Shown: positions 8,058 to 54,873 of the stretch, piece after piece | How positions within the stretch are numbered: the stretch's first letter is position 1 | How the letters are laid out: every line of letters begins with the position of its first letter | Assembly (NCBI GenBank): GCA_036245525.1 | Contig: BTPG01000004.1 | Location: 215,201,722 to 215,265,721 of the forward strand | Origin: Semisulcospira habei | Lineage: Eukaryota; Mollusca; Gastropoda; Semisulcospiridae | DNA length: 64,000 bases | Reading direction: 5' to 3' | The notes under the pieces: model-generated | Databases searched by the model: none | The model's input: only the letters and a program-made list of their open reading frames with translations | Told to the model about the DNA's origin: nothing | Made by a program: the position numbers and the translations under genes

Positions 8058-10646
8058 TCATCATCATCATCATCATCAGTCCCTTGCCCGAACTGGGCGT
8101 TGGGGGGACTGAAAGGCAGCAGCAACAGACAGTGCTCTCCACTGAGTTCTATTTTGGGCGGTGGCAAGCAAGTCTGGCATCTCGAGTTCGGTCCATTCTT
8201 TTATGTTTGCGACCCAACTCTTTCTCTGACGACCTCGCCGACGACTTCCTTCGAGAGTGCCTTGGAGGATAGTCTTGGACAAGGTGTTGTGTCGGGTCAC
8301 GTGGCCAAACCAAGCAAGCTTGCGCCGTTTCACGGTTGCCAGAAGGGGTTCATGTGGGCCCACCAGGGAAGTGACGATGCTCCGTACATATTCGTTGGTC
8401 TTGTGCTCGCGGTACGAGATGCGGAGCAACTTCCTCAGGCACTTGTTCTCAAAGGCCTGGATTTTCTTTTCTGAGTCTGCAAGCAGTGTCCAAGTCTCAC
8501 AGCCGTAGAGTAGAATAGACACTACGAGGGACTTGTAAAGCCTGTACTTGATGGTGAAGCTGATGGAGTTACTTCGCCATATCCTGTCCAGCCTGGCCAT
8601 TGCGGATGTTGCTGTACCTATCCTGATACGGATCTCTGCTATGCAACTACCGTCTTTGGACAGGGTGGCTCCCAAGTACTTGAAGCTATTGACCTCTTCT
8701 AGCTTCTGGCCGTTCATGTGAATGTTGCTGCTGCTGTCGCTTGTGGTGTTGATCATCACTTTGCTTTTATCCGTACTGATCTCCATGCCATAAGACCCTG
8801 CGCTACTTGAAAGTTTGTCTGTCAGGTTTTGGAGCTCACTATTGCTGCCTGCCATGAGGTCAATGTCGTCTGCGAATCGAAGATTGCACAGGGATCTGCC
8901 ACCAATAGAGATTGAAGTATGGTGGTCGTGGAGGGTTTCCTGCATGATCTTCTCCAGGAATATGTTGAAAAGGACAGGAGAGAGCAGGCATCCTTGACGG
9001 ACACCGATCGTCGTCCTGAAGAACTCGCCTGACTGATTGTTAAGTAGAACCGCGCTGCAGGCGTTCTTGTAAAGCGCTTCTATCATTTGGATCACTCCCT
9101 CCTCTATGTTGAACGATCTCATGACTTGCCAGAGTCCGTCGTGCCAGACGCGATCAAATGCTTTCCTGAAATCAATGAAGTTGTGGTAGAGTTCGCGCTG
9201 ATGCTGCAGATGTTTCTCGATCAGGACGCGGCAGTTGAAAATCTGCTCTACAGTGCTTCTTCCAACTCTGAAGCCAGCCTGTTCTTCTGCCAGCAGTTCC
9301 TCGGCGAAAGTTTTGAGGCGGTTGAGAATGATTCTAAGCATTACTTTGCTAGGGTGACTTATCAGACTGATAGTTCTGTAGTTCTGGCACTGTTTCAGGT
9401 TTCCTTTCTTGGGGAGCGGGATCACTAGAGACTGTGTCCATTCTACTGGCCATTTCTTTTGCTCCCAGATCTTTTGACAGAGTGTAGTGAGGACCTTCGT
9501 TGTTACTTCTCCTCCATGTTTCAACAGTTCAGCAGGTACGTTGTCTACACCTGGAGACTTTCCTCCCTTCAGGCCGCGTACGGCTGCTTCCACCTCTTCA
9601 GCTAACACTGGCAGGTCTTCAGCCTTCCTGGCCCCAGCCTGGTTGTTTTGGAGGATGCTGGTGTCTGGCTCAGCCTTGTAGTTATACAAGTCTCGGCAGT
9701 ACTCAGTCCATCTGTTTAGTACAGCAGTGTTTTCCGTAAGGAGTTGGCCGCTGCTGTCTTCGATGACTGTGGCTGTTCGCTGTTGAGTCTTGGTGAGGGT
9801 CCTTAGCGTTTCATAAGCCTTCTTGCTGTTGCCGTTTGCCATGCCCTCTTCCACGCTACAACACTGGTCTTCAATCCAATCTTCTTTGGCTTCTTTCATC
9901 CTCTTCCTGATCTTCTTGTTGACAAGTCTGTACTTGTTTGCTGATGTGAGGTCTTGGCCTCTCTTTTTCTTCCAGGCTCTCCTCTCATCACAGAGATCGA
10001 GGATGTCATCGGTGACCCAGGGCTGTTTGCGCTTCCTCTGCTTCCCCAGCACTTCTTCTGCTGTAGAAAGTAACACCTCTTTTATATTTCCAGCAAGGGT
10101 GTCTACGTCGCAGTCCAAAGTAGCCAAGGCTGCAAATCTGCCTCCCACCTGGGCTTGGAAGAGCTCTTCTACTTCCGGGTCTTTTAGCTTCTGGAGGTCG
10201 AATCTGATGCGAGGGCTCTTGCTATCTCGTTTCAATGCCAGCTTCAACTTGAGGCTAGTAAGGACGAGGTTGTGGTCGCTGCCAATATCAGCGCCAGGAA
10301 AGGACCTCGTTTGTGCTTTGTTAATGCTGGATTTGAATCGTCGAGGCAGCAAGATGAAGTCAATCTGGTTATGGACCAGGCCTCCTGGCGATTGCCATGT
10401 CACTGTTCTTGACTTCTTGTGTGGATGGAGGGTATTAGCAACGGTGAGACGGTGACTCTGTGCGAACTCTAAAAGTCGCAGGCCTCTGTCGTTTGTTTCT
10501 CCAAGGCCAAACTTGCCAGCTGTTCCTGCCCATTGTTGGTAGGCGTCAGGGCCGATCTTTGCATTCCAGTCACCGAGGACAGTCAGAATGTCTTTCTTAG
10601 GTGTTTTCTTGATGATGTTGTCCAGTTGTTCGTAAAATTCTATCAA
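8058..10646 (-). mobile_element. RTE-clade non-LTR retrotransposon, 5'-truncated
   Basis: On the minus strand the stop codon of the ORF is followed directly by a (TGA)n tail, 8058-8078, as is usual for RTE elements, which end in short tandem repeats instead of poly(A). The 5' end stops inside the endonuclease. I could not find a convincing target-site duplication. Confidence 0.8.
8076..10646 (-). CDS. RTE-clade endonuclease (C-terminal part) and reverse transcriptase
   Basis: The open frame of about 856 residues has no internal stop. It begins inside the APE endonuclease: TVLGDWNAKIG and, later, NQIDFIL and SDHNLVLTSL (the catalytic SDH). The RT domain follows with WTQSLVIPLPKKGNLKQC, AGFRVGRSTVEQIF, motif A FIDFRKAFDRVWHD, motif B GVRQGCLLSPVLFNIF and motif C LRFADDIDLMAGS, which keeps both aspartates (FADD). 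After RT come the RTE-type end motifs LYGCETWTLLADSEKK and RRKLAWFGHVTRH. The normal protein should have roughly 150-200 more N-terminal residues, so this copy cannot nick DNA by itself although the RT looks preserved. Confidence 0.85.
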   Translation of the reverse strand: MIEFYEQLDNIIKKTPKKDILTVLGDWNAKIGPDAYQQWAGTAGKFGLGETNDRGLRLLEFAQSHRLTVANTLHPHKKSRTVTWQSPGGLVHNQIDFILLPRRFKSSINKAQTRSFPGADIGSDHNLVLTSLKLKLALKRDSKSPRIRFDLQKLKDPEVEELFQAQVGGRFAALATLDCDVDTLAGNIKEVLLSTAEEVLGKQRKRKQPWVTDDILDLCDERRAWKKKRGQDLTSANKYRLVNKKIRKRMKEAKEDWIEDQCCSVEEGMANGNSKKAYETLRTLTKTQQRTATVIEDSSGQLLTENTAVLNRWTEYCRDLYNYKAEPDTSILQNNQAGARKAEDLPVLAEEVEAAVRGLKGGKSPGVDNVPAELLKHGGEVTTKVLTTLCQKIWEQKKWPVEWTQSLVIPLPKKGNLKQCQNYRTISLISHPSKVMLRIILNRLKTFAEELLAEEQAGFRVGRSTVEQIFNCRVLIEKHLQHQRELYHNFIDFRKAFDRVWHDGLWQVMRSFNIEEGVIQMIEALYKNACSAVLLNNQSGEFFRTTIGVRQGCLLSPVLFNIFLEKIMQETLHDHHTSISIGGRSLCNLRFADDIDLMAGSNSELQNLTDKLSSSAGSYGMEISTDKSKVMINTTSDSSSNIHMNGQKLEEVNSFKYLGATLSKDGSCIAEIRIRIGTATSAMARLDRIWRSNSISFTIKYRLYKSLVVSILLYGCETWTLLADSEKKIQAFENKCLRKLLRISYREHKTNEYVRSIVTSLVGPHEPLLATVKRRKLAWFGHVTRHNTLSKTILQGTLEGSRRRGRQRKSWVANIKEWTELEMPDLLATAQNRTQWRALSVAAAFQSPQRPVRARD

Positions 10647-11340
10647 GACAAAAAGGTTGCGTTGATAATATCACAGCGACGCTTATTATTATTTAATGCG
10701 CTTATTATTACTTACAGAAAATACAGCGAACTTGATCTCCATCCCCCAGCAGCCTCAAGCCGGAGTGAAGTCCTGGATGAGGTCTCTGATCACACTGGCT
10801 GGCTCCCTCAATGCGCTATCGCCTATCAGCGGTAGCGCATCGAGGGAGCCAACCAGATTGTTCTCAAAACACCGAGTGGTTTCGGGATAGTGTGATGGTG
10901 TGTGATTTGGGACCTTAGGGCTCTAAGGGCCGGCACATCCTTGTGTTAATGTATCTGTTAATGCAGGCAATGCGTTTTCATTCACGACTGCATTACAAAA
11001 AACACTCTCAAGGGAGGACCGTTCTGTGAAAATTCCAACACCAACAAACTCAGAAATGCGACTATAACAAGGCTGGGGCTGCTGCATGTTTTTGAATGTG
11101 GCAGATACTTTCAAAACTCCATTTCCAAATGCTCTAGGGCAGACACACTCCTACTTTAAAAAAAACACCAAAAAAACATACACACAGCCACACACAAACC
11201 AACAACATCACAGTGACAGCTGATTCAAACATCCACAAACTCAGAAACGCGATTTTAATGACTTATGGGATGTTGCGTGCTTTCAAATTGAGCAGCTTCT
11301 TTCCCAGCCCTCGATTTCCAACTACTCCCAAATAAGCACA
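10647..11340. other. No gene seen; contains a small palindrome
   Basis: A hairpin with 26-bp arms lies at 10797-10854 (GGCTCCCTCAATGCGCTATC.. and its complement). Short A-rich and CA-rich tracts lie around 11155-11200. No coding or splice signal was recognised. Confidence 0.4.
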
Positions 11341-20963: not shown

Positions 20964-21878
20964 TTACTTCTGAAGTAAATATTTATGGAGGCGATCTTTG
21001 AAGACGCTAATCTTACAAATTGATTTCAGGTGTGGAGGCAACATATTCCACGCTTTAGCGCCTGAAAAAGACAGACTGGTTTTACAGATGTCTAATCTAA
21101 TTTTTGGAAGGTGGATCAAACTATTTCTCGTGTTTTTCCTATTATTGTCGGAAAATAGAGTTTTTAGATAGGGTGGGGCTTTTCCGTGCATGATCTTGTG
21201 CAGTAGAACACAGCGATTAAATTCAAACTGTTTCTTCAACGTTAGTAACTTGAGAGATTTTAATTTTTCATCAGTCGAAGTAGGACTGGGAAGTATTAAT
21301 TTAATGCCCCGACGATACAAGGAATTAACTTTTTTCATGTGAACTTCGCTGCATCCATCCCAGACGGTAGAACTGTAGTCACAATGCGTTTTGATATGCG
21401 CATGGAAAAAGAGTTTACGGATATCAGTATTAACTATATGGCGTAGTTTTGATAACAGGAACAGATTTTTGGAGATTGTTTTGCATATTGAGTCAGTATG
21501 CGGCTCCCAGCTTAATTGGTTGTCCACTATAACGCCTAATAAGCGATGCCTAGTTACTTGTTCAACAAGCTGTCTATCTAAGGAAAGTGTTAAAGGTGGT
21601 AGGCCATGCTGGTGTTTCTGACGTGTAGTAACTAACATGCTCTTTGTCTTTGGAATACTAATAATCATGTGATTATCACTGCACCAGCCTGCTACTTCAT
21701 CAAGACTTTGTTGGAGTACCTTATTAATGGTTGTGATATCTTTATCAGATGTGTGTATGGTCGTGTCATCTGCGAACAGATCGCAGTTTGCGTCTAAATG
21801 AGATATGCACAGTGGCAGATCATTAATAAAAAGATTAAATAATAAGGGCCCTAGAATAACCCTTGTGGAACACCGCAA
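20964..21878 (-). pseudogene. CR1-like RT, C-terminal part (after frameshift)
   Basis: This frame continues the RT of 21851-23428 after a one-base deletion in motif B. It holds ILGPLLFNLFINDLPLCI, motif C CDLFADDTTIHTS and the C-terminal region ending KAWNMLPPHLKSICKISVFK, a usual end for CR1-like proteins. The domain is otherwise complete, so the copy appears to have been inactivated recently. Confidence 0.8.
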
Positions 21879-23428
21879 GTTACTAAACCATCAGAGGAAT
21901 ACTTGCCATTTAGCAGTACTTTCTGTGTTCTGTCCCTGAGATAGGAAGATATAAAGGAGACAGTATCTGAGTCAATGTGATAGAATGGTAGTTTTTTTAG
22001 TAGGATAGAGTGGTTGACAAGATCAAAAGCTTTTTTCAGGTCAAGAAAGATTGTACCTGATACTTTATTGTCATTTATGGCAGAGAGCCATTTATCAATT
22101 AAATGATTGAGGGCAGTTTGGCACGAATGTAGAGGTCGAAATCCTGATTGTGCTGCAGTTATCAGATGGTTTTGCTCCAGAAAGTTTAGAAGATGAGTAT
22201 GGATATGTCTCTCGAGCGGTTTTGAAATACTGGATAATATGGAAATGGGCCTGTACTCGTTTAGGTTGCATAAATCTTTGCTTTTGGGAAGCGGGATTAC
22301 CTTCGCTTTTTTCAGCTCGTCGGGAAAAACGTTATGTCTGATCGATAAATTATAAATAAAGGTCAGGGATTCGATGACGTAGGGCAGAGATAGTTTTAAA
22401 ATCTGACTACTAATGCCATCTGGACCGCAAGACGATTTGTTCTTTAAACTGGAAATAGATTTGCCTACATCTAGGACAGTCATAAGCGGTACTAAAAATG
22501 GGCCGCAGGCTCTCTGTTGACTATGGTGACGTAGTTGATGAGAGCAAGTGTAGTTTACAGGGTTAGGTGTATTTGACTTCGCCAGAGTTTGAGCAACAGT
22601 TATGAAGTGAGCGTTGAATGCATCAGCAGTAAGATCGGGCGGAATATTAGGCGATCGTTTACTATTACCTTTGGTGAAATTGTTTATTACTTGCCAGACT
22701 GAACGGATGTCTTTGCCGTCGGCAATAATTTGTTCTGCATTTTGCCTCTGTGCTTTACGAACTAGAGATTTGACATGGTTTCGCTGCTTCTTGTATTCAG
22801 TAAATTTCTTGTCTCGTTTTAATTCATCTCTTACCTCCATTGCTTGTTTTATCTCATCAGAGAGCCATTTTGGCATAACAGGATATTTGACGCGTTTGAT
22901 GCGCTTAGGCGCGTGTCTATCCAGAACGGCGAGAAACAGCTCGTACCAGCGTGACAGGGCATCGTTAGGGTTTTTGCAGTTTTTTATATCATAAAATGGT
23001 ACTAAAGATAGTTCATATAAAAAAGCAGTTTGGTCGAATTTTTTAAAACATCTATACATTATGGTAGTGTGTCCTTTGATTGACTGTTTAGCTAACCTAA
23101 CAGACAACGTAAAACAAACAGGAAAGTGATCACTAATGGAAATATTAGGTACGCTAACATTTTTTACAACGCTGACATTTGTGCTATATACAAAAACTTT
23201 CACTGTCTTAGTTGGAATGACAGAATCCTCACAGAAACGAATGTAGCTTGAAACGACGTCTACAGTCTCCTCTAGCGACTTACTGCTGTCTAAGAACACT
23301 GACCAGTCTGTGCACTCAAAGCACCCCTGAAGTTGTGCCTCAGTGTCTGAAGTCCACTCCTTGACGATTTTCTCCACTGGCGGAACAGATTTCAACTTGG
23401 TTTTGTACATGGGCAGCAAATGCACCAC
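21851..23428 (-). pseudogene. CR1-like EN-RT, N-terminal part, chimeric and frameshifted
   Basis: The frame of about 525 residues holds RT motifs KVIPLPKSKDLCNLNEYRPI, AAQSGFRPLHSCQTALNHLI, motif A GTIFLDLKKAFDLVNHSILL and most of motif B (TCGVPQG), where the frame breaks near 21858: the serine codon has two bases instead of three. The N-terminus is unusual. The first ~80 residues (HLLPMYKTKLKSVPPVEK, then QGCFECTDW) look like the linker after the endonuclease of a Rex1-like element, with its own ADHCVVHLLP motif just upstream. They are fused in frame near 23190 to the endonuclease end of the second element (ISISDHFPVCFTL). Confidence 0.75.
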
Positions 23429-23630
23429 ACAATGATCAGCAGTGCTGAGTGGAGGTTTACTAAAAGCTTTGTAGGCGAGGGCGATATTCCCGAAACATTT
23501 GTCGAGAATTTTGTCTTTTCTCGTATTACAGTTTACATACTGATGATGATGATGAAACGTTTTTACTCAAGGATAAAAAGTTTTAGGCATAGCAATGCCT
23601 ATCTTCCAAACTGTCCTGCTACTATCTATC

Positions 23631-26714: not shown

Positions 26715-27012
26715 GAATACTATTTCGAGGATTTTTAAGGGCATGGATTGTCAAAGCTGTTTCTGGTTGCACCAAGGGTCCACTGCTTAGAGAAACACCA
26801 GCTGGGCGTGCACACACACACTTTCTATGTGCCCAACAGACTAAACACAGATTAAAAAAAAATAAAAAACATCAATTTTATTGTAGAATGATTCTTTGCG
26901 CCAAAACCATAATTAAATCAAGGGTCTGCTTCAAGCTTGTGTACTTATCTCAATGATTTTAATCTACTTAAGGCTGCATTTCCCAACTATGACATTTTAG
27001 AGGTGTCACTTA

Positions 27013-27364
27013 ATAAATAATAATAATAATTACGGTATTTATAATGCGCTTATCTTATAATAATTATAACTCTAAGCGCACACTCACAACTCGCGTACGC
27101 ATGCGCACGCTTTAGACAACGACTCACGTACCACAAATACATTATGACAGTCAGCTTAGGGTGGGGAGTATGGTGCTATTAGTGCTAGAACTGTTGAAAG
27201 AGGTGAGTTTTGAGGGCAGACTGGAAGGAGGAGAGAGAGTGTTTATGATGGAGAGAGAGTGGGAGAGTGTTCCAGGTGGAAGGACCATATACAGAGAAGG
27301 AGCGGGCCGAAAGTGCTGAGTTTGACGCTGGAGATGTACAAATACATGTACCATTTCCAGGAAA
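27013..27364 (-). pseudogene. L2-type retrotransposon 3' fragment
   Basis: On the minus strand it encodes the C-terminus ARSFSVYGPSTWNTLPLSL.. then SLSSFQSALKTHLFQQF, followed by a 3' UTR that ends TATAAATACCGTAATTATTA with (TTA)n. This matches the 3' end of the long L2 element at 49089. Confidence 0.75.
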
Positions 27365-32004: not shown

Positions 32005-32325
32005 TACATACATACATGCCCCCGCTCCTTCTCTGTCTATGGTCCATCCACCTGGATGGACACCCTCCCACTCTGTCTCCATCAGAAACACTCTCTCTCC
32101 TCCTTCCAGTCCGCTCTCAAAACTCACCTATTCCAACAGTTCTAGCACTATAACATCACCACACTCCCCACCCGACACTGACTGTCGTAATATATTTGTG
32201 GTATGTGAGTCATTGTCAAAAGCATGCGCATGTGTGCGCGAGTTGTGAGTGTGCGCTTAGAGTTATAATTATTATAAGATAAGCGCATTATAAATACATT
32301 AATTATTATTATTATTACTTACAAT
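32005..32325 (+). pseudogene. L2-type retrotransposon 3' fragment
   Basis: The same C-terminus and 3' UTR as at 27013 and 49089, but on the plus strand: CAGTCCGCTCTCAAAACTCA .. ATTATAAGATAAGCGCATTA TAAAT then (ATT)n. Confidence 0.7.
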
Positions 32326-42361: not shown

Positions 42362-42639
42362 CTGAAAACCAAGCAAGAGGCACAAAAACATTGCACACAG
42401 ATTCCAAATGTATACTCCGAGTAACTTATTAATAATGATGATGATATACTGATGATGGTGATAATAATAATAATAATAAACATACTTTCAGAGCTGTACA
42501 AATGGCATCCTACAATTACCTTGAATCATACAACACGCATATAAAAATGTAATTTTGACACAATGTAAGCTAGCTACCAGCCCGGAATTCCATGGCCGCA
42601 TTAGCACAGCATAATTATTAAGGCTACTTTCGATATAGA

Positions 42640-42815: not shown

Positions 42816-45800
42816 CTTACTTACTTACGCCTGTCACCCCTACCCGGGTATAGGCCGTCGACGAGAGACCTCCAGCAACTCCTGTCCTGTGCTTCACCTT
42901 CGATTCTACTCCAGGTGGTTCCCAGTCTCTTGATGTCTGCTTGGAGGTCTCGACGCCAGGAGTTTCTCGGCCTACCTCTTTTCCTCTTTCCCTGGGGGTT
43001 CCATGACAATGCCTGCCTAGTGATACTGGAAGCTGGCTTTCTCAGACTGTGACCGATCCATCCCCATCTTCTTCGCCCAATTTCATTCTCTGCTGTTATC
43101 TGCTCTGTTCTCTCCCAGAGTCTGACGTTGCTGATCTTCTCTGGCCAGTGGATTTTCAAAATTCTTCTAAGGCAACTGTTCATGAAGGTCTGTACTCTGT
43201 TGACTGTGGTTTTTGTCAATCTCCATGTCTCTGCTCCATATAGGAGAACTGCTTTTACATTGGAGTTGAAAATCCGGACTTTGGTGTGTTGTGACAGCTC
43301 TCTGGAACTCCACACTTTTTTCAACTGGAGAAAGGCTGCTCTGGCTTTACCGATTCGTGCTCTGACATCTGCATCAGTGCCGCCTTTTTTGTCTATGATG
43401 CTCCCGAGATAGGTGAAGGACTCCACCTCCTCCAACGGGGTGCCAGCAAGCAAGACTGGTTCTTCCCTGGTTGCGTTCAGCCTCATTGTCTTTGTTTTCT
43501 GTTTGTGAATGGTGAGGCCCACTTGGGACGAGATGTCAGCAAGCCTCGTGGTCTTGTCCTGCATTTGTTGATGAGTGTGGGACAGTAATGCCAAGTCGTC
43601 TGCAAAATCGAGGTCGTCAAGCTGTGTCCACAGTGTCCACTGTATTCCACTTCGTCTGTGCTCTGTGGTCATCTTCATGACCCAGTCTATGGCCAGTAGG
43701 AAGAGGAATGGAGACAGCAGACACCCCTGCCTGACACCAGTTCTGACCTGGAGCTCTCTGGTGAACTGCCCTTCGTGGATCACGCGACATGTCATGCCAT
43801 CATAGATGCTCTTGATCAGGCGGACGAGCTTTGTGGGTACACTGTAGTGTCGTAGGAGTTTCCACAGAGTCTCTCGGTCCACGCTGTCAAATGCTTTCTC
43901 ATAATCCACAAAGTTGACGTACAGCGGGGAGCTCCACTCCAGAGACTGTTCCACGATGATGCTGAGAGTGGCGATCTGGTCTGTACATGATCGGTTCTTC
44001 CTGAATCCTGCTTGCTGGTCTCTCAGCTGGGGGTCAACGGAGCTCTTCATTCTCTCTAGGATGATCCTGTTGAAGACCTTTCCTGGTACTGACAGCAAGG
44101 TGATTCCTCTGTAGTTGGAACACTTGCTGAGGTCGCCTTTCTTGGGAAGCTTGATTAGGTACCCCTCCTTCCAGTCAGCTGGCATCACCTCCTCTTCCCA
44201 GATCTTTCCAAACAGTGGGTACAGCATCTCAACTGTTGTCTCTAGGTCTGCTTTCAGAGACTCCGCTAGGATGCCATCTGGCCCTGCTGCTTTGCCATTC
44301 TTCAAAAATGCCACTGCTTTTCTGATCTCTTCCCGGCTGGGTCTGTCACAGCTGATGGGTAGGTCGGTCTCTGCTGGCTGGATGTCGGGGGGGTCGGGTG
44401 GGTTAGGTCTGTTCAGTAATTCTTCAAAATACTCGGCCCATCTGTCGAGTTGGTCTGCTCTGTCTGCAATAGGCTTGCCTTCTTTGTCTTTTACTGGTCT
44501 TTCTGTATGGCCATACTTACCCGACAATCTTCTGGTAATGTCGTAGAGCTGTTTCATGTTGCCGCTGCCTGCTGCCTTTTCTGCCTCTGCTGCCAGGCTG
44601 TCTGTGTAGGCCCTCTTGTCTGCCCTGATACTCCTCTTCACCTCGCGGTTGGCTTCCGAGTATTCCCCCTGTGCCCTTACTTTGGCTGCTCTCGTGCGAC
44701 TGTTGTTGACCGCTGCTTTCTTCTGCTTCCTCGCTTCTATCTTCTTCAAGGTCTGTGCCGACAGCCAGTCCTTGTGGTGGTGTTTCCTGAACCCTACAGT
44801 GTCTTTGCAGGTTGAGTTCAGCGCCTCTCTAACTGCCTTCCACTGCTGCTCTGTGGTGACCGCCTCCTCTTCATTTACTAGCTCCTGTAGCGCTTGAAAC
44901 CGGTTGGACAGCACCAGTTTGAACTCTTCTCTAACTCCAGTTTCTCTCAGGAGGCCTACATTATAGCGCTGTCTTCTTGTTGTCTCTGTGCGGCTTTTCT
45001 TTAGCTTGAGCTTCATTCTTAAGGTAAGCAGATGGTGGTCTGAGGCGACATCTGCTCCCCTCCTCACTCGAACATCTTGAAGGGATCTTCTAAATTTCTT
45101 GCTAATGCAGATATGGTCTATTTGGTTCTCTGTTGTATGGTCAGGTGAGACCCAAGTTGCTTTGTGTATTCTTCTGTGTGGGAAGATGCTGCCTCCAATG
45201 ACAAGTCGGTTTAGAGCACAAAAGTCTACAAACCTCTCCCCGTTCTCACTCATCTCCGAGCCTAGTCCCTGTCTCCCGATCACCTCTTCGTATCCGGTGT
45301 TGTCCTCCCCTATTTTGGCATTAAAATCGCCCATGACGATGGTGATGTCTCGCTCCGCACATTTGTCCACGGCACTCTGGAGTCGGTCGTAGAACTCTTG
45401 TTTCTCTTCCTCGTCACTGTCATTGGTGGGCGCATAACACTGGATGACGTTCAGCTTGAGCTTTTTCTTGGTTCTAAAGGCTGCTGTTATAATTCTTGGC
45501 CCAAGAGGTTCCCAGCCCATCAGCGCTCTCTGTGCCACTGGTGACAGCATGAGTGCTACTCCTTCTGTATGGGGGGCATTCTCCTCTTCATGACCTGAAT
45601 ACAGAACCATCTCCCCACTTAACAGCCTTTTCTGGCCAGACTGCGTCCATCTGGCTTCACTGATGCCTAGCAGGGAAAGGTTGTACTTTTGCATTTCCGC
45701 TGCTATCTGGGCGGCCTTGCCGCTCTGGTACATGGTCTTGACGTTCCATGTGCCCATGGTTGTATCCCTGGATAGAGAGAGGCGGCTCGGTCCTGTGGCT

Positions 45801-46114
45801 TCCGAAGACTTCCGGCTTTCACCACAGGACGTCATAAGTCTTCTAGTAGAAGAACCTTCCTCCTCCAGGAAAGGAATTACTGTTAGTCTTTTCGTCGGCG
45901 TTTTTGTAGCTATTTCCTTTTTTGCAGGGTGGGGAAGCTACCCCCACGCCCAATCCCCTTACTAGGAGGACCAGGGGTTTTCTGTCGGGGTCACCTTCCC
46001 TTAGACCATGTTGGTTCACGGCACCTTATTTCATTCGGTGCACCCCTCTCACGAGGGACCCCCTATCCACCACCCAGGGGACGCGCCTCAACGCCGTATG
46101 GTCCCAGCGCGAGG
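42816..46114 (-). mobile_element. Full-length RTE-clade retrotransposon with 12-bp target duplication
   Basis: TTATCTCGGTAA lies at 42804-42815 and again at 46115-46126. The 3' end on the minus strand is (TAAG)n; the 5' UTR is about 280 bp. With an intact ORF and identical duplications the insertion looks recent. It sits in intron 3 of the EF-hand gene in the same orientation as that gene. Confidence 0.9.
42821..45835 (-). CDS. RTE-clade ORF: APE endonuclease + reverse transcriptase, intact
   Basis: 1004 residues without a break. Residues ~25-250 are the endonuclease: TMGTWNVKTMYQSGK, LLGISEARWTQSG, NVIQCYAPTNDS, IVMGDFNAKIG, NQIDHICISKKFR and VASDHHLLTLRMK. RT follows at ~520-800: LIKLPKKGDLSKCSNYRGIT, QAGFRKNRSCTDQI, motif A FVDYEKAFDSVDRETLW, motif B GVRQGCLLSPFLFLLAIDWV and motif C LDFADDLALLSHT. 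The C-terminal part has LLYGAETWRLTK and RRRWGWIGHSLRKP. All catalytic residues I can check are present. It would copy itself by target-primed reverse transcription. Such proteins are often mislabelled in databases because of the endonuclease similarity. Confidence 0.93.
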   Translation of the reverse strand: MTSCGESRKSSEATGPSRLSLSRDTTMGTWNVKTMYQSGKAAQIAAEMQKYNLSLLGISEARWTQSGQKRLLSGEMVLYSGHEEENAPHTEGVALMLSPVAQRALMGWEPLGPRIITAAFRTKKKLKLNVIQCYAPTNDSDEEEKQEFYDRLQSAVDKCAERDITIVMGDFNAKIGEDNTGYEEVIGRQGLGSEMSENGERFVDFCALNRLVIGGSIFPHRRIHKATWVSPDHTTENQIDHICISKKFRRSLQDVRVRRGADVASDHHLLTLRMKLKLKKSRTETTRRQRYNVGLLRETGVREEFKLVLSNRFQALQELVNEEEAVTTEQQWKAVREALNSTCKDTVGFRKHHHKDWLSAQTLKKIEARKQKKAAVNNSRTRAAKVRAQGEYSEANREVKRSIRADKRAYTDSLAAEAEKAAGSGNMKQLYDITRRLSGKYGHTERPVKDKEGKPIADRADQLDRWAEYFEELLNRPNPPDPPDIQPAETDLPISCDRPSREEIRKAVAFLKNGKAAGPDGILAESLKADLETTVEMLYPLFGKIWEEEVMPADWKEGYLIKLPKKGDLSKCSNYRGITLLSVPGKVFNRIILERMKSSVDPQLRDQQAGFRKNRSCTDQIATLSIIVEQSLEWSSPLYVNFVDYEKAFDSVDRETLWKLLRHYSVPTKLVRLIKSIYDGMTCRVIHEGQFTRELQVRTGVRQGCLLSPFLFLLAIDWVMKMTTEHRRSGIQWTLWTQLDDLDFADDLALLSHTHQQMQDKTTRLADISSQVGLTIHKQKTKTMRLNATREEPVLLAGTPLEEVESFTYLGSIIDKKGGTDADVRARIGKARAAFLQLKKVWSSRELSQHTKVRIFNSNVKAVLLYGAETWRLTKTTVNRVQTFMNSCLRRILKIHWPEKISNVRLWERTEQITAENEIGRRRWGWIGHSLRKPASSITRQALSWNPQGKRKRGRPRNSWRRDLQADIKRLGTTWSRIEGEAQDRSCWRSLVDGLYPGRGDRRK

Positions 46115-47732: not shown

Positions 47733-47854
<122 letters not shown>

Positions 47855-48272
47855 TTTACTTTAACATTTAACAAAGGCGTCGCCCAAAGCCAAAAAATGC
47901 ACTCAATCAGAATAGCTCAAAGGACGTAATTTTTCATTAAATTCTGAGAATGCTCTTGCTACGCTAATGCCATGGAATTCCAGGCTGGGAAGCTCGCACT
48001 GTGTCATCAGGACATCAGCTGCCCTTTTTGTGACTGCATCGCCTACTATTTCTAGAAAGGAGAGGGTTAGTGGGAGAGAAGGAATGACAGACCTATCATT
48101 TTAAGCCTTCCACTGAACACCTACTACATAAAGTAATAGGGACTACCCCCAGGCCCCCCGCAATCCGCTGGAGAATATCCAGTCCTCCCCCCCCCCCCCC
48201 CACGAGAGGGGAGGCTAGTGCATGAATATCCCAAACAGATCTTGGACCTGTTGGATAGATTTAAGTTTTTGC

Positions 48273-48316
48273 CGCCCACGACCGGTTTCGCTCCAAAGGG
48301 GCTCATCAGGTAGGCA
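48273..48316 (-). ncRNA. Hammerhead ribozyme (type I, minimal stem III)
   Basis: On the minus strand: stem I strand TGCCTAC, core CTGATGA (48303-48309), stem II GCCCC-TTT-GGAGC (48290-48302, one mismatch), core GAAA (48286-48289), a very short stem III in ACCGGT, cleavage triplet GTC (48280-48282), and stem I return strand GTGGGCG. The two stem I strands pair over seven positions (two G-U). All invariant core bases are present. Predicted cleavage is after the C at 48280. Such minimal ribozymes are known in terminal repeats of Penelope-like elements and in retrozymes, where they may act as dimers. Confidence 0.8.
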
Positions 48317-48579
48317 TATATGGCGTAACCTGAAATTGCAAACACGACGTGTACTAGAAGCTGCCTCCAGAATTTACTGGTAGCACATACAATTACCTTG
48401 TACAGCGCGGATTGCATCCCTAAAACTTTGTGAGGTGTTGCAGTGGAAGAAGACAGACTAATTTTGAAAAGGCAACACCTAGGCAATTTTGTGGTGCAAT
48501 AATTCTTTACGTTAACAAAGGCGTCGCCCAAAGTAAAAAATTCCAGGGCATTAGCGTAGCAAGAGCATTCTCAGTGGTG

Positions 48580-48756: not shown

Positions 48757-48840
<84 letters not shown>
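48757..48840. repeat. (TA)n-(TG)n microsatellite
   Basis: A TA tract passing into a long TG tract (48775-48840). Confidence 0.95.
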
Positions 48841-48845
<5 letters not shown>

Positions 48846-48866
48846 AATTTTCAGGTTACGCCGTAT

Positions 48867-48927
48867 GCCTACCTGAAGAGCCCACCCCCCCCCCCCTCCC
48901 CTCCCTTGCAGCGAAACCGGCCGTAAG
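48867..48927 (+). pseudogene. Degenerate hammerhead ribozyme in the right arm
   Basis: The inverted partner of the ribozyme at 48273-48316. It reads TGCCTAC-CTGAAGA.. GCGAAACCGGCCGTAAGGG. The core has CTGAAGA for CTGATGA, the cleavage triplet is GGC for GTC, and stem II is replaced by a poly-C stretch, so it should be inactive. Confidence 0.7.
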
Positions 48928-49142
48928 GGACAAAAACAAAAATCTACTCTGCAGGTCCAAGATCTGTTTGGGAATATTCATGTACTACTCCCCTCTCGGG
49001 GGGAGGTCAGGATATTCTCCAGCGGATTGCGGGGCGCATGGGGGTAGTCCCTATTGGTATATGCAGTAGGTGTTCAGTGGAAGGCTTAAATAATAATAAT
49101 AATAATAATTACGGTATTTATAATGCGCTTATCTTATAATAA

Positions 49143-50160
49143 TTATAACTCTAAGCACTCACAACTCGCACACGCATGCGCACGCTTTAGACAATGACTC
49201 ACGTAACACAAATAGTGAAAATACATTACGACGGTCAGCTTGGGGTGGGGAGTGTGGTGATATAGTGCTAGAACTGTTGAAAGAGATGAGTTTTGAGGAC
49301 GGACTGGAAGGAGGAGAGCGAGTGTTTCTGACGGAGAGAGAGTGGGAGAGTGTTCCAGGTGGATGGACCGTATACTGAGAAGGAGCGGGGGCCGAAAATG
49401 CTGAGTTTGGTGCGGGGGATGAGGAGGCGGAGAGGGGCAGAGCGGAGGGAGCGGGGAGGAGTGTAGGGGTGAAGTAAGTTGGAGAGATAGGCAGGAGCGT
49501 AGTTGTTCAGGGATTTGTAGCAGAGAGACAGAATCTTGTATTGGATGCGTTGGGGGATGGGGAGCCAGTGAAGGAGCTTGAGCAGGGGAGTGATGTGGTC
49601 GGATTTTTTTCTTTCTCAGGACGAGGCGGGCAGCATTGTTCTGGACGCGCTGGAGAGTGAGAGTGGTGGAGTGAGGAAGGCCGGAAAGGAGAGAGTTGTA
49701 GTAGTCGATGCGAGATAAGATGAGAGAGACAGCGAGTTTGGTGGCAGCTTCGGTAGTGAGGTATTTTCTGATCTGACTGATGCGGCGGAGCTGGAAATAA
49801 CATGCCTGGGCCGTGGCGGAGACGAAGCTGGTCATGGAAAGAGAGGAATCGAGGATAACGCCAAGGTTCTTGACCGAGTCAGAGAGGGAGATGGGGGTGC
49901 TGTCGAGTTGAAGGTGGAGAGAGGGAGGGAGCTGAGAAAGTTTCTGGCGAGTGCCTACCAGCATGACTTCCGTTTTGTCGTCGTTCAGTTTGAGCTTGTT
50001 TGCTGTCATCCAGTTTTTCACGTCTTCATAGCAGTCAGCCGTGCGAGTCAGTAGTGTCTGAGTGTTGTCGAGTTTGTCTTTGTCTAGTAGTTGTGAGTCG
50101 TCAGCGTAGAGGTGGTGGTGTATGTGGTGAGACTGGATGATTTGGACATGGGGGAGGTGT
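49143..50160 (-). pseudogene. L2 RT: motif C to C-terminus
   Basis: This frame holds HLYADDSQLLDKDKL (motif C), DVKNWMTANKLKLNDDKTEV and VRQNN-type end block LQRVQNNAARLVLRKK. It shifts again near 49610, in a T-rich run, before the conserved L2 C-terminus (SVYGPSTWNTLPL-like), which lies in another frame. Confidence 0.75.
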
Positions 50161-50860
50161 AGAGTGTGAAAACGACCGGGCCCAGAACGGACCCCTGTGG
50201 AACGCCGCAGGAGAGCGTGACTGGGTTGGAGGAGACGCCGTCGATGGTGACGGACTGCTGTCTGTCGGAGAGGTAGGAGAGAAACCAGGAGTGAGCAGAG
50301 TCAGTGATGCCAAAGGAGTGGTGAAGGCGGTGGAGGAGGATAGAGTGGTCTATGGTGTCGAAGGCGGCAGAGAGATCGAGTAGCGTAAGAAGGGAGATGT
50401 TGCCCGAGTCAGTGGAGAGAAGCAGGTCGTTAAGAATATGTAGAAGGGCTGTTTTAGTGCTGTGATGTTTGCGATAGGCAGACTGGAAGGGACTGAGGAG
50501 GTTGCTGTCGGCGAGGTGGAGGTTGAGTTGGTTGAGTACAACCTTCTCAAGAAGCTTGGATAGGAAAGAGAGATTGGAGACTGGGCGGTAGTTCTTGAGT
50601 TCGTTTGGGTCGAGGTTGTGTTTTTTGAGGAGAGGACGGACGATGGCGGACTTGAAGATATCGGGGACGGAGCCATTTTCTAGAGATGTGTTGATGATGT
50701 CGGTAATGAAGGGCAAAAGTTGTGGGAGGCCGTCCCGGTAGAGGGAAGCTGGGAGGGGGTCTAGTTCGCAGGTTTTGAAAGGTATGGACTTTATGGTCTT
50801 GAGGATTTCATCCTGAGAGACGGGGCGGAAGGACGAGAGGGGAGTGCCGGAAAAGGGGGG
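50084..50860 (-). pseudogene. L2 RT: fingers and palm up to motif B
   Basis: The minus strand reads FKSAIVRPLLKKHNLDPNEL, KNYRPVSNLSFLSKLLEKVV, SAYRKHHSTKTALLHIL, motif A LTLLDLSAAFDTIDHSILL and motif B SCGVPQGSVLGPVVFTLY. These are clear L2-clade signatures. The frame then shifts near 50140 relative to motif C. Confidence 0.8.
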
Positions 50861-52272
50861 GGGGGGGGGTCAGGAAGGCAAGGCGGAGAAGGCAGAGTGT
50901 CGAGTGTGTTGCGCAGAGTTTGGATTTTGTCGGAGAAATAGGAGGAAAAAGCGGACGGAAGTTCTTCTTTGCTGTGTGTGTTGGGAAGAGGAGAGTCTTT
51001 AGAAGTGCCTAGGAGTGTGTTCATGGTAGCGTAGAGGGTTTTGGAAGAAGTGGATTCCAGGATTTTGTTTTGAAGGTGTTTGCGTTTGGAGTCGGAGATC
51101 ATTCTGCAGACTTTGGATCTGGTGGTTTGGAAGATCTCTCTGTGAACGGTGAGGTCAGATGAGCGCCAGCAGCGTTCCGCTTGTCGACGCTCGCTCTTCG
51201 CCTCAGCTATGTCGTCAGTGAGCCAGGGGGAGGGGAGTCGGTTGGGTATGGAACCGGTGGTGACAGGGGCATGGGTGTCTAGAAGTTTTCGAAGGGAGGA
51301 ATCGAAATGGGATGCAAGATCGGGAGAGGAGGCGGGGTCCAAGAGAAGGTCGACAGCTTCGTCGAAGAAGTTCTCTCGGTTGACAGATTTTAGTTTGCGA
51401 CGAGAGACAAAGAGCTTGGTTTTTTTCAGGGGAGGTAGGTTGAGGGCGACGAGAATAGCGAGGTGGTCGGAGGGAAGCACAGAAGAGGTGTCAGAGTCGA
51501 GGAAGAGTTGATCGGAGGTGCGGGTGATGATCCAGTCGAGGGTGTGGCCGAGTCGGTGGGTGGGTTTAGTGATGTGTTGTGTAAGATTGTGGTTTGAAAG
51601 TGACGTGCAAAGGCGTTTTGTGTCGGGGTGGTCGGGTTTGTCGAAGTGGAAGTTAAAGTCGCCAAGAAGGATGTGTTTTCCGGGTCGTGTGCTGTAGTGG
51701 TCGAGGAGGAGATCGAACTCGGTGAGGAACATGGAGTTTGTGAGTTTGTTTTGAGAGCTTGGAGGGGGGCGATAGATACATGAGAAGATGAGGGACTGGC
51801 CAGGGAGTGTTGCTACGGCCTCGACAGATTCAAAGGAGGGATGAGCAAAAGGGAGAGACTGAGAGAAGGAGAGGTGAGCAGAAAGACAGCCCCTGTAGAT
51901 GATGGCAATGCCACCCCCTCTGGAAGCACGCGGGAAGGAGGCCAGGCGGTAGCCACTGGGAGTGACGCTGGCGATGATGGGTTCATCGCCAGCTGAGCGG
52001 AGCCACGTTTCGGTGATCACGGCAACATCTAGGTCATTGTCTAGGATGAAATCTGAAATCACGTCGGCTTTGCCATCTTTGCAGACAGACTGTGCATTGA
52101 ACAGACACAGTTTTAGGTTGGATGAGCCAGAAGAGGAAGAGGGAGAAGAAACGGACGAAGAAGAGAAGAAAGGAAGAGGAGGGTCGGGAGGGGGGAGAGA
52201 GGATGGAGGGGGGAAGGAGGGGTGAGGGGGAGAGGGGGGAGGAGGAAAAGACGGGGAAGGAGAACCGGGCAA
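50791..52272 (-). pseudogene. L2 APE endonuclease
   Basis: The frame of about 490 residues holds CLFNAQSVCKDGKADVISDF, AVITETWLRSAGDEP, RGGGIAIIYRGCLS, SCIYRPPPSS, HILLGDFNFHFD, LDWIITR and LPSDHLAILVAL, in the order of an L2/CR1 endonuclease. A frameshift in a poly-G tract (50857-50870) separates it from the RT. Confidence 0.8.
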
Positions 52273-52818
52273 GAAAGAGGATGCGAGAGGAGGGTGGGGG
52301 GGGGGGGGGAGGAGGAGGGAGTAGGAAAAGCTGAGGTAGAGAGAGGGGGAGGGCGAAGGGGAGGAGAAAGGGGGGAGAGGGGACGAGGAGGAAAAAGCAG
52401 GCGAAGGAGGAGGGGGTGAGGGGAGGAAGGGGGAGGAGGGCGGGGGAGGGGGAGCAGGGAGCAGTAGATGAGCAAGAGAGGAAAGGAAATGGGAGAAGAA
52501 GGAAGGGAGGTGGATAAATCAAGGAGGCGGGGGGAGGCGGAAGGGGTGGAAGAGCATAGGAAAAGGAGAAGAAGTGTGTGGTTGTGTTTGTGGTGGCGAG
52601 TCCCGCCTTTTGCTAATTCCGCCCCTGTGGCCTCTCTTTCGCGATCGGATGCCGCGTAAGGCATCTGCAACACTGTCAGCGGCACCGGCCGCGCAGTAGG
52701 TGGCGTGGCGACGTAGAGATAGCAGTTGTTGGCGTGTGTATTTGATGAGCATGATTGCTTGTGAGGACAAGAAAGAGGAAGACGAGAAGAGGGTTTAGTA
52801 GGGTGTGTGTGTGTGAGT

Positions 52819-52889
<71 letters not shown>

Positions 52890-53396
52890 GTGTGTGTGTG
52901 GGCGGTGTGGTAGGGGAGCGACCTGATTTCCGGTCGGTCAGCGGCGAGATCGGGCAATGGCGCCGAAAGTGGGGAGAGCGAGATGTCGACGAGAGAGCAC
53001 ACGAAAACCTATAGAACGGTAGGAACACGAACGAGTCTACAACAACCAAGCAGCAGATGCAACCACGGGTGGCAAACAGACTCACACAGTAAACATATCA
53101 CACACTAGCACGCAGCACATGAAAACAGGGCGCGGAAAGGCCCGCGAACCCACGCTGCGGAAGAAGCAAAATCAGTGGCGACGTAAACAAAAATTCAAAT
53201 GACAGACACAATTCAATACGATACCACTCAAACAGCAACCAGATCCGACGAAACACAAGCATAATCCTCATCAGCTCACTCTTATACGATACTCAGCAGA
53301 CTTTCAGCACACGAAACACAGTACATCCAACGAAAAACCACTAAAACACTGGGAGAGAAAACACGTGGTAGGTCGCACAAACAAGATGGCGCCCGT
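52273..53396 (-). pseudogene. L2 5' region, low-complexity N-terminus and 5' UTR
   Basis: At 52519-52770 the minus strand encodes YTRQQLLSLRRHATYC, which resembles the YT--LL-LR motif at the N-terminus of some L2-like ORFs. The rest is a Pro/Ser/Leu-coding purine-rich tract (52130-52560), a (TG)n tract at 52806-52887 and a 5' UTR. Frames are broken. Confidence 0.5.
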
Positions 53397-53789
53397 AAAT
53401 AGATAGGTCTGTCATTCCTTCGCTCCCTTTTTTTTCTAGATCTCTTGAGCGAAGCAGTCACAAAAAGGGCATCTGATGTCCTGATGACACAATGCAATCT
53501 TACCAGCCTGGAATTCCATGGCATTAGCACAGCAAGAGTATTCTCAGAATTGAATGAAAAATTACGTCCCTTGGAGCTAATCTGATTGAGTGCATTTTTT
53601 GGCTTTGGGCGACGTCTTTGTTAAAGTAAAGAATATATATGCCGATTTTGAGGCCGACTGTCGAGCAGTTTCGAATCGGAGTGTGATCAGGCCGGACTAC
53701 AAAAACGTGTGCGCTGCCACACATTCCCCGACTTTTTTAGCCGACCGGTTTGAACCGAAGATCAAGGTCGTAAACAGCTTCCTGTTCTG

Positions 53790-54232: not shown

Positions 54233-54446
54233 TTAACTCCTTCTACCCCAACACTGAAATCCCTAAATTTTGCCGTGGTCCTCTGAAAACTGCATTGCAG
54301 TGCAGGACACAGATTGACCATGGTAGTTCAAGGGTGATGCCAGAATAGCTTGGCGCCCATAGGCGCCAAGCTATTCTGGCATCACCCTTGAACTATCATG
54401 ATCGATCCTTATCTTGCTGTGGTGTGTCTGGGGTAGAATGAGTTAA
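54233..54446. mobile_element. TTAA MITE, family A2, 28 bp from an EF-hand exon
   Basis: TTAACTCCTTCTACCCC to GGGGTAGAATGAGTTAA, complete. It lies just downstream of the donor of the exon at 54475-54648. Confidence 0.85.
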
Positions 54447-54666: not shown

Positions 54667-54873
54667 TTAACCCATTCAGCCCTGACGCACTACAGCAGGA
54701 GATGGGTCGACCCTGATAATTCAAGGGTAGTGCCAGATTAGCTTGGCAGCGCCAAGCTAACCTGGCACTGCCCTTGAATTATCATGGTCGATCTATCTCC
54801 TGTAACTGGTGCATAGTCATTAGATGACGCCTCCAAAATTTGGGAAATACGGCCGTCGGGCTGAATGAGTTAA
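54667..54873. mobile_element. TTAA MITE, family A, 18 bp from an EF-hand exon
   Basis: TTAACCCATTCAGCCC to GGGCTGAATGAGTTAA, complete. It lies directly upstream of the acceptor, leaving only TTTGTTTGACATATGCAG between the MITE and the exon. Confidence 0.85.

Follow-up and report, generated by a model that had tools for sequence, protein, structure and literature searches.

The question raised by this locus is whether a short motif on its minus strand is a true hammerhead ribozyme and, if it is, what kind of element carries it. The window, by which we mean the whole stretch of 64,000 nucleotides from the gastropod Semisulcospira habei that was analysed, had been given a sequence-only reading that placed a self-cleaving hammerhead in the left arm of a large inverted repeat and suggested a nonautonomous, circle-forming element. 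The hammerhead find is genuine, though of a kind already known, and the carrier is probably a noncoding, nonautonomous family of retroelements of the Penelope-like (PLE) sort that bears a genuine minimal type I hammerhead.

The motif runs from 48316 to 48273 on the minus strand and is a type I hammerhead, open-ended at stem I, in which all the required bases are present. We compared it with the core-base list for this type in the cited section of PMC3088659, namely C3, U4, G5, A6, G8 and A9, G12, A13 and A14, the A15.1-U16.1 pair and H17, and every one of them was found, as the sequence-only reading had held. CTGATGA occupies positions 48309-48303 and GAA positions 48289-48287, with the ACCGGT palindrome directly after it; C17 is position 48280 and the predicted cut falls between 48280 and 48279, which agrees with the GTC cleavage site proposed before. 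Stem I has the seven pairs claimed for it (48310-48316 with 48279-48273), two of them being U.G. Stem II, described as five base pairs, consists in fact of four pairs and a C.A mismatch. The very short, self-complementary stem III was read correctly: it is a bare palindrome, and therefore a single A-U pair with a CCGG loop is the most that a monomer can form. A structural scan found one hammerhead motif of such design in the window. As for the 148-aa frame that passes through the motif, a coding role was considered and rejected, none of its eight candidates having an E-value of 1 or less. The coordinates of the features are collected in Table 1.

Table 1. Features of the ribozyme locus in window coordinates; m numbers refer to the family mapping reference (window's linker plus unit, m1-m649).
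Feature	Position	Strand	Evidence or remark
Type I hammerhead with minimal (dimer-type) stem III	48273..48316	-	RF00163 23.1 bits (below gathering score); family alignment
Palindrome ACCGGT: at most one A-U pair plus CCGG loop in the monomer, 6-bp helix III in the double hammerhead	48281..48286	-	Kept in 44/51 family copies
Stem-loop II, GCCCC-TTT-GGAGC, with one C.A mismatch (48300/48292)	48290..48302	-	Family comparison
Competing hairpin TCAGGT/ACCTGA	48306..48333	-	Strands CAGGT and ACCTG present in 38/51 family copies
Left arm: unit of the left element that bears the ribozyme	47853..48345	-	Self-comparison, family mapping
Linker of about 155 nt, 5' part of the repeat unit (m1-m155)	48346..48501	-	Upstream of the unit in many relatives too
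Upstream unit truncated at its 5' side, its 3' end (m606-634) remaining; head-to-tail junction across about 10 nt	48512..48540	-	
Inverted fragment (m523-558), 5' end of the left element	48539..48574	+	
(TA)n tract at the left element's 3' end	47735..47852	.	(TA)n common after family 3' ends
Right unit copy, 5' half (m157-402)	48838..49090	+	
Right unit copy, 3' half (m399 to end)	53396..53640	+	
Broken hammerhead of the right copy	48866..48929	+	GTC changed to GCC, stem I 4/6, stem II 2/5, poly-C in loop II
LINE (endonuclease and RT frames) within the right copy	49091..about 53395	-	(ATT)n-type tail
Additional weak similarity to the mid-part of the unit	42550..42617	+	74-78% identity over 65-73 nt

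Regarding the surroundings of the motif, the inverted repeat is real, with the left arm 77-84% identical to the two parts of the right one, but in our reading it consists of two copies of one repeat family in opposite orientation; the alternative of one palindromic element was rejected after the family mapping. The left element consists, from its 5' end, of the inverted fragment, the stub of an upstream unit, the linker and the ribozyme-bearing unit, and then comes the (TA)n run. In the right copy the hammerhead should be inactive, because the U at the cleavage site has become C, stems I and II are mispaired and loop II holds a poly-C run; Rfam gave no hammerhead match for this copy. The same right unit is split by a LINE with both endonuclease and RT matches, and thus the earlier statement that there is no RT in the window was wrong. 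Actually, RVT_1 matches were found in seven of the ten reading frames scanned (one of them below the cut-off), and they come from five LINE loci, one LINE being that inside the right arm. LINE-type endonuclease matches occur at four of these five RT loci, the exception being 20964-23566, and GIY-YIG was absent from the Pfam scan of the ten window frames; therefore no PLE enzyme was seen in the window.

The locus has one ribozyme-spanning unit per strand, the other unit of the left element being a stub without a ribozyme, and in a read-through minus-strand RNA 41 of the 44 ribozyme bases are predicted to pair with the right arm. Given this arrangement, and with the right copy broken, RNA circles from the window locus are unlikely. 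The proposal of a nonautonomous circle-former thus stood in one part, since the carrier is noncoding, and circle formation is unsupported at this locus. The carrier is a unit of about 610-650 nt, and the data support the view that it is too short, and its frame too broken, to encode an RT.

We searched the animal's own assembly (1.98 Gb in 507 contigs) with 141 bases around the motif. This gave 42 matches of 89-100% identity, the window included, from the best 40 of 1460 first-look candidates scored. For the analysis of the family we took 37 loci, which cover the 41 matches other than the window itself; this sample is biased towards the window's subfamily because the best matches were chosen.

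Head-to-tail junctions were found in 24 of the 37 loci, one unit ending near m635-641 and the next one starting at m2 after 5-13 nt. An opposite-strand unit abuts within 60 nt in 21 loci, and 17 loci show both features. Judged by eye, the opposite unit lies at the 5' end in several loci and the upstream units are often 5'-truncated. Unit pieces ended at m563-580 in 31 of 120 cases, many others reaching about m635-641. Some loci, for example L024, L031, L042 and L055, show no head-to-tail junction and have no opposite unit next to them; these four end at the same point, m575. The pairs L042/L055 and L024/L050 share sequence just upstream of the point where the similarity to the unit stops, so some of the apparent 5' truncations may be a different variant of the linker. 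Regarding the insertion sites, (TA)6 or longer lies within 30 nt of 49 of the 95 3' ends (internal ends included), against 313 of 7400 random windows from the same loci, and a number of elements are flanked by (TA)n at either end. We looked for target duplications at the family elements and none was clearly readable, because (TA)n hides them.

Two same-strand units that both span the ribozyme occur in six of the 37 loci, with spacings of 574, 591, 613, 622, 638 and 745 bp. Both tandem ribozymes are perfect in L054. L025 and L026 each keep two complete cores, with flaws in the stems or the palindrome, one of the two ribozymes of L047 has an extra base, one core is broken in L038, and only one of the two regions of L049 counts among the family copies analysed below. 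RNA circles from tandem copies elsewhere in the family, as in L054, would therefore be possible, since both of its ribozymes are perfect.

This architecture matches the terminal repeats of PLEs best, through the direct, partly tandem, pLTR-like units present at 24 of the 37 loci and in the left element of the window. Minimal hammerheads are reportedly found in the pLTRs of PLEs and in Terminons, as Cervera and de la Pena in 2014, Lunse et al. in 2017 and Arkhipova et al. in 2017 are said to have described.

The cited passages on PLEs offer several points of comparison. Like the hammerheads of PLE pLTRs and Terminons, those of our family are of type I, have almost no stem III, are palindromic and would be expected to act as dimers, and the terminal repeats are likewise both tandem and inverted (PMC7761336, PMC6466107, PMC6431247, in the parts cited); unlike them, the repeat of our family is noncoding and has no RT/EN ORF. 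According to the same body of work, PLE hammerheads lack helix III and may work as tandem dimers (PMC7761336, cited section), a palindromic loop III and a tandem arrangement being required (PMC6466107, cited section). In Adineta, PLEs are described with direct pLTRs plus an abutting inverted pLTR, with solo pLTRs and with sequences captured between pLTRs (PMC3846280, cited section). The Poseidon element PAc of Anolis, as presented in the cited part of PMC11167929, has a minimal hammerhead at the pLTR-ORF boundary, is cut 26 bp past the start codon and cleaves AT-rich targets. Our family resembles it in carrying the ribozyme in a pLTR-like repeat, in the AUG of CUGAUGA about 26 nt before the cut and in its AT-rich targets, but a full ORF follows the PAc ribozyme, whereas no long ORF follows ours and about 400 nt of apparently noncoding sequence lie 3' of it instead of a pLTR-ORF boundary. 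The same part of that source reports that PAc RNA was not cleaved without protein.

The main rival is a metazoan non-LTR retrozyme, that is, a tandem replicon of circular RNA with type I hammerheads which is copied by some host RT and is unrelated to PLEs. Such elements are known in molluscs (PMC7229834, in the part cited), and our family shares with those of mussels and corals its noncoding tandem units, its type I hammerhead and its high copy number. In this respect the GC content of 0.477 in the window unit, the 1460 first-look candidates with 42 matches from the 40 scored, and the six loci with same-strand ribozyme-spanning units fit well. Nevertheless, a monomer of about 610-650 nt exceeds the roughly 170-400 nt of retrozymes given in the cited part of PMC7229834, and the ribozymes of the mussel and coral elements are mostly canonical, whereas stem III is minimal in our family. 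Furthermore, the abutting inverted copies and the 5'-truncated units are PLE-like, and an arrangement of this inverted kind is not described for the mussel and coral retrozymes in that part of the source. A further likeness on the retrozyme side is found in the axolotl HHR_Amex1 and the newt satellite hammerheads, which also have a one-pair helix III and a palindromic tetraloop and are active mainly as dimers; they differ in that they keep loop-loop contacts and sit in tandem retrozymes of about 330 nt, shorter than the unit of our family (PMC7229834, cited part). We therefore regard the retrozyme as a rather unlikely explanation and keep to a nonautonomous PLE-like family.

A foldback element or DNA transposon with long terminal inverted repeats, in which the inverted repeat would be the transposing unit and the ribozyme in its arms incidental, is very improbable. 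The large inverted repeat with (TA)n near its ends and the opposite units abutting in 21 loci would suit such an element, but the head-to-tail units in 24 of the 37 loci would not, nor would loci without any abutting or head-to-tail unit, such as the four that share the end m575.

As to whether the motif is a hammerhead by descent, the covariance-model check gave two different results. Rfam at gathering cut-offs returned no match over the whole window, but in a focused search of 111 bases Hammerhead_1 (RF00163) aligned in full (model positions 1-45) with 48274-48315 at an E-value of 0.00077, its 23.1 bits being below the gathering cut-off of 34 bits. Scaled to the whole window and one family, the E-value is about 1e-4. 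A 10-kb Rfam search listed HH9 alone at this position (E-value 4.4), Hammerhead_1 being absent. The minimal stem III presumably depresses the Rfam score of the whole family, and none of the copies in the 37 loci reached the gathering score; the standard Rfam cut-off therefore misses every copy scanned. Regarding chance, 908 Mb of first-order Markov sequence with the composition of the window gave an expectation of 0.0016-0.016 per window across three comparable designs, all drawn up after the motif had been seen, and the palindromic dimer design did not occur in it at all. For a much looser pattern that leaves out the stems, the expectation rises to 1.25 per window.

Within the 37 loci, 51 family copies cover the motif. 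The core is complete in 40 of them, and 34 combine it with at least five of six stem I pairs and at least four of five stem II pairs. Perfect hammerheads (core, 6/6 in stem I, 5/5 in stem II and ACCGGT) represent 19 of the 51. One further copy, L047:3297, was left out of both figures because of an extra base at the cleavage site, and with it they would be 35 and 20. A test for unbroken stems, with stem II of at least three and stem I of at least five pairs, was passed by 25 copies. The five common variants inside the motif fall at N7, in loop II, at H17 (C or U), in a stem I wobble and in stem II; U at N7, which gives the AUG within CUGAUGA, is present in 38 copies.

Stem II occurs as GCCCC/GGGGC (23 copies), GCTCC/GGAGC (5) and GACCC/GGGTC (4), plus minor forms. 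At pair II.3, 40 copies have C-G and eight T-A; at pair II.2 the counts are 40 for C-G and four for A-T, both sides having changed in each case; compensatory changes are thus found at these two positions of stem II and none in stem I. In total, 529 of the 561 stem cells are paired and 12 double changes were counted, whereas shuffling the 3' letters gave at best 524 and seven, respectively, none of 2000 shuffles reaching either observed value. This control overstates the significance because the copies are related, and the compensatory evidence would amount essentially to about two events. The 11 core sites show no significant excess of conservation over the rest of the unit: in 52 copies, 2521 out of 10000 randomly drawn site sets were equally conserved. 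The window copy seems to combine the 5' strand of one stem II version with the 3' strand of another, which would account for the C.A mismatch; a single point change would explain it equally well.

The reading of the motif as a hammerhead of the kind reported for PLE terminal repeats gains support from these 51 copies of the same genome and their compensatory changes, and we have hardly any doubt that the window motif is a hammerhead by descent. A chance or by-product resemblance within a repeat, with no catalytic history, is barely credible, because the lack of a match at the Rfam cut-off in the single-window search, the ordinary conservation of the core sites and an alternative fold favoured over the hammerhead are outweighed by three matched stem II versions, 19-20 perfect copies out of 51 and so small an expectation per window.

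Regarding the activity of the window copy itself, the competing upstream hairpin occupies the 5' strand of stem I and the bases C3-A6. When folded freely, the alternative is favoured by 3 kcal/mol without flank and, through this hairpin, by about 6 kcal/mol with at least 20 nt of flank. Two copies together gave a computed -30.9 kcal/mol as a double hammerhead versus 2 x -13.8 kcal/mol as two monomers, and the unconstrained two-strand fold lies 1.8 kcal/mol below the double hammerhead. In five hand-picked family copies the double hammerhead was also computed to be more stable than two monomers in every case, the alternative fold was lower by 2.6 kcal/mol without flank and by 2.6-5.9 kcal/mol with 40 nt, and the unconstrained two-strand fold lay 1.2-3.8 kcal/mol below the double hammerhead. 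Useful self-cleavage by the window copy itself would be improbable. Probably it is a partly decayed member of the family which cuts poorly or not at all.

We consider a PLE-like mobilisation of the ribozyme family fairly likely, and it might proceed as follows. Transcripts of tandem units would adopt a double-hammerhead fold, with a 6-bp helix III made by the pairing of two ACCGGT palindromes and with stems I swapped between the units. These transcripts would then cut themselves into monomers of about 620 nt, which may stay linear or be circularised by a host ligase. The monomers could serve as templates for an RT acting in trans, which would most likely come from a PLE with a GIY-YIG endonuclease. 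This RT would reinsert the copies into TA-rich DNA, in many cases truncated at the 5' end and joined there by an inverted copy.

The unit itself contains neither a PLE RT nor GIY-YIG. In the genome we found 35 GIY-YIG matches among the best 150 of 1583 candidates scored, and four of the listed loci (L058-L061) were examined. L058 and L059 belong to one family, in which GIY-YIG is accompanied by an RT-like region; L061 represents a second family and L060 the GIY-YIG part of the latter. From their sequences, the RT frames beside GIY-YIG in L058, L059 and L061 have the appearance of PLEs. None of the four loci had a hammerhead in the scan or any resemblance to the unit, so no autonomous, sequence-related partner was found among these four of the 35. 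All four adjoin GA- or TA-rich runs.

Many animal genomes contain thousands of minimal hammerheads, most of them scattered through noncoding DNA, and what these ribozymes do in PLEs and Terminons is, according to the cited part of PMC7761336, still a mystery. The present family offers a definite carrier: its copies can be measured, its stems vary naturally, L054 holds a perfect tandem pair and the setting is (TA)n, so that dimer cleavage, circle formation and provision of the enzyme in trans are all open to testing. As a speculation, which we hold unlikely as a whole, PLEs and retrozymes might be linked by a noncoding RNA of about 620 nt that would be cut by double hammerheads, circularised and copied in trans into (TA)n by a PLE enzyme, while the hairpin masks the core until the dimer forms. 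If this were true, many of the dispersed minimal hammerheads of animals would be nonautonomous passengers of PLEs.

Outside this genome, the stricter motif patterns gave no match in IMG/VR, the pattern searches of genome contigs gave none and no phage records were found. A loose pattern gave 12 loci in IMG/VR, 10 of which, judged by eye alone, did not look like hammerheads. L002, another of the IMG/VR loci, had no hammerhead match. In the remaining one, on the minus strand of a viral contig (L003:35-114, IMGVR_UViG_3300037485_002668), there is a hammerhead-like motif with a longer stem III, which scored 23.5 bits with HH9 and 25.0 bits with RAGATH-1, both under the gathering score. Among the papers listed by the literature searches we found none naming this ribozyme family, the primary papers on PLE and Terminon hammerheads being outside the search, and we claim no priority; a search by sequence strings gave nothing relevant among the matches listed.

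Some minor observations concern the rest of the window. The tRNA search of the window found none. Two near-perfect hairpins on the plus strand (54326-54393 and 54714-54784) are shaped like microRNA precursors and are possibly small inverted-repeat elements; the mir-4890 and mir-154 models gave no match at the gathering score. The five LINE loci with RT frames are all on the minus strand, at 2-2008, 8076-10670, 20964-23566, 42821-45937 and 49143-52518, and the family of the LINE that splits the right arm has further 3' ends at 27011-27336 and 32018-32317, which are 86-88% identical. The LINE at 42821-45937 keeps a frame of 1038 aa without interruption. Among the best 120 of 759 matches, relatives of its protein include Littorina, Batillaria, Schistosoma, fishes and Branchiostoma, and also metagenome bins labelled as bacteria.
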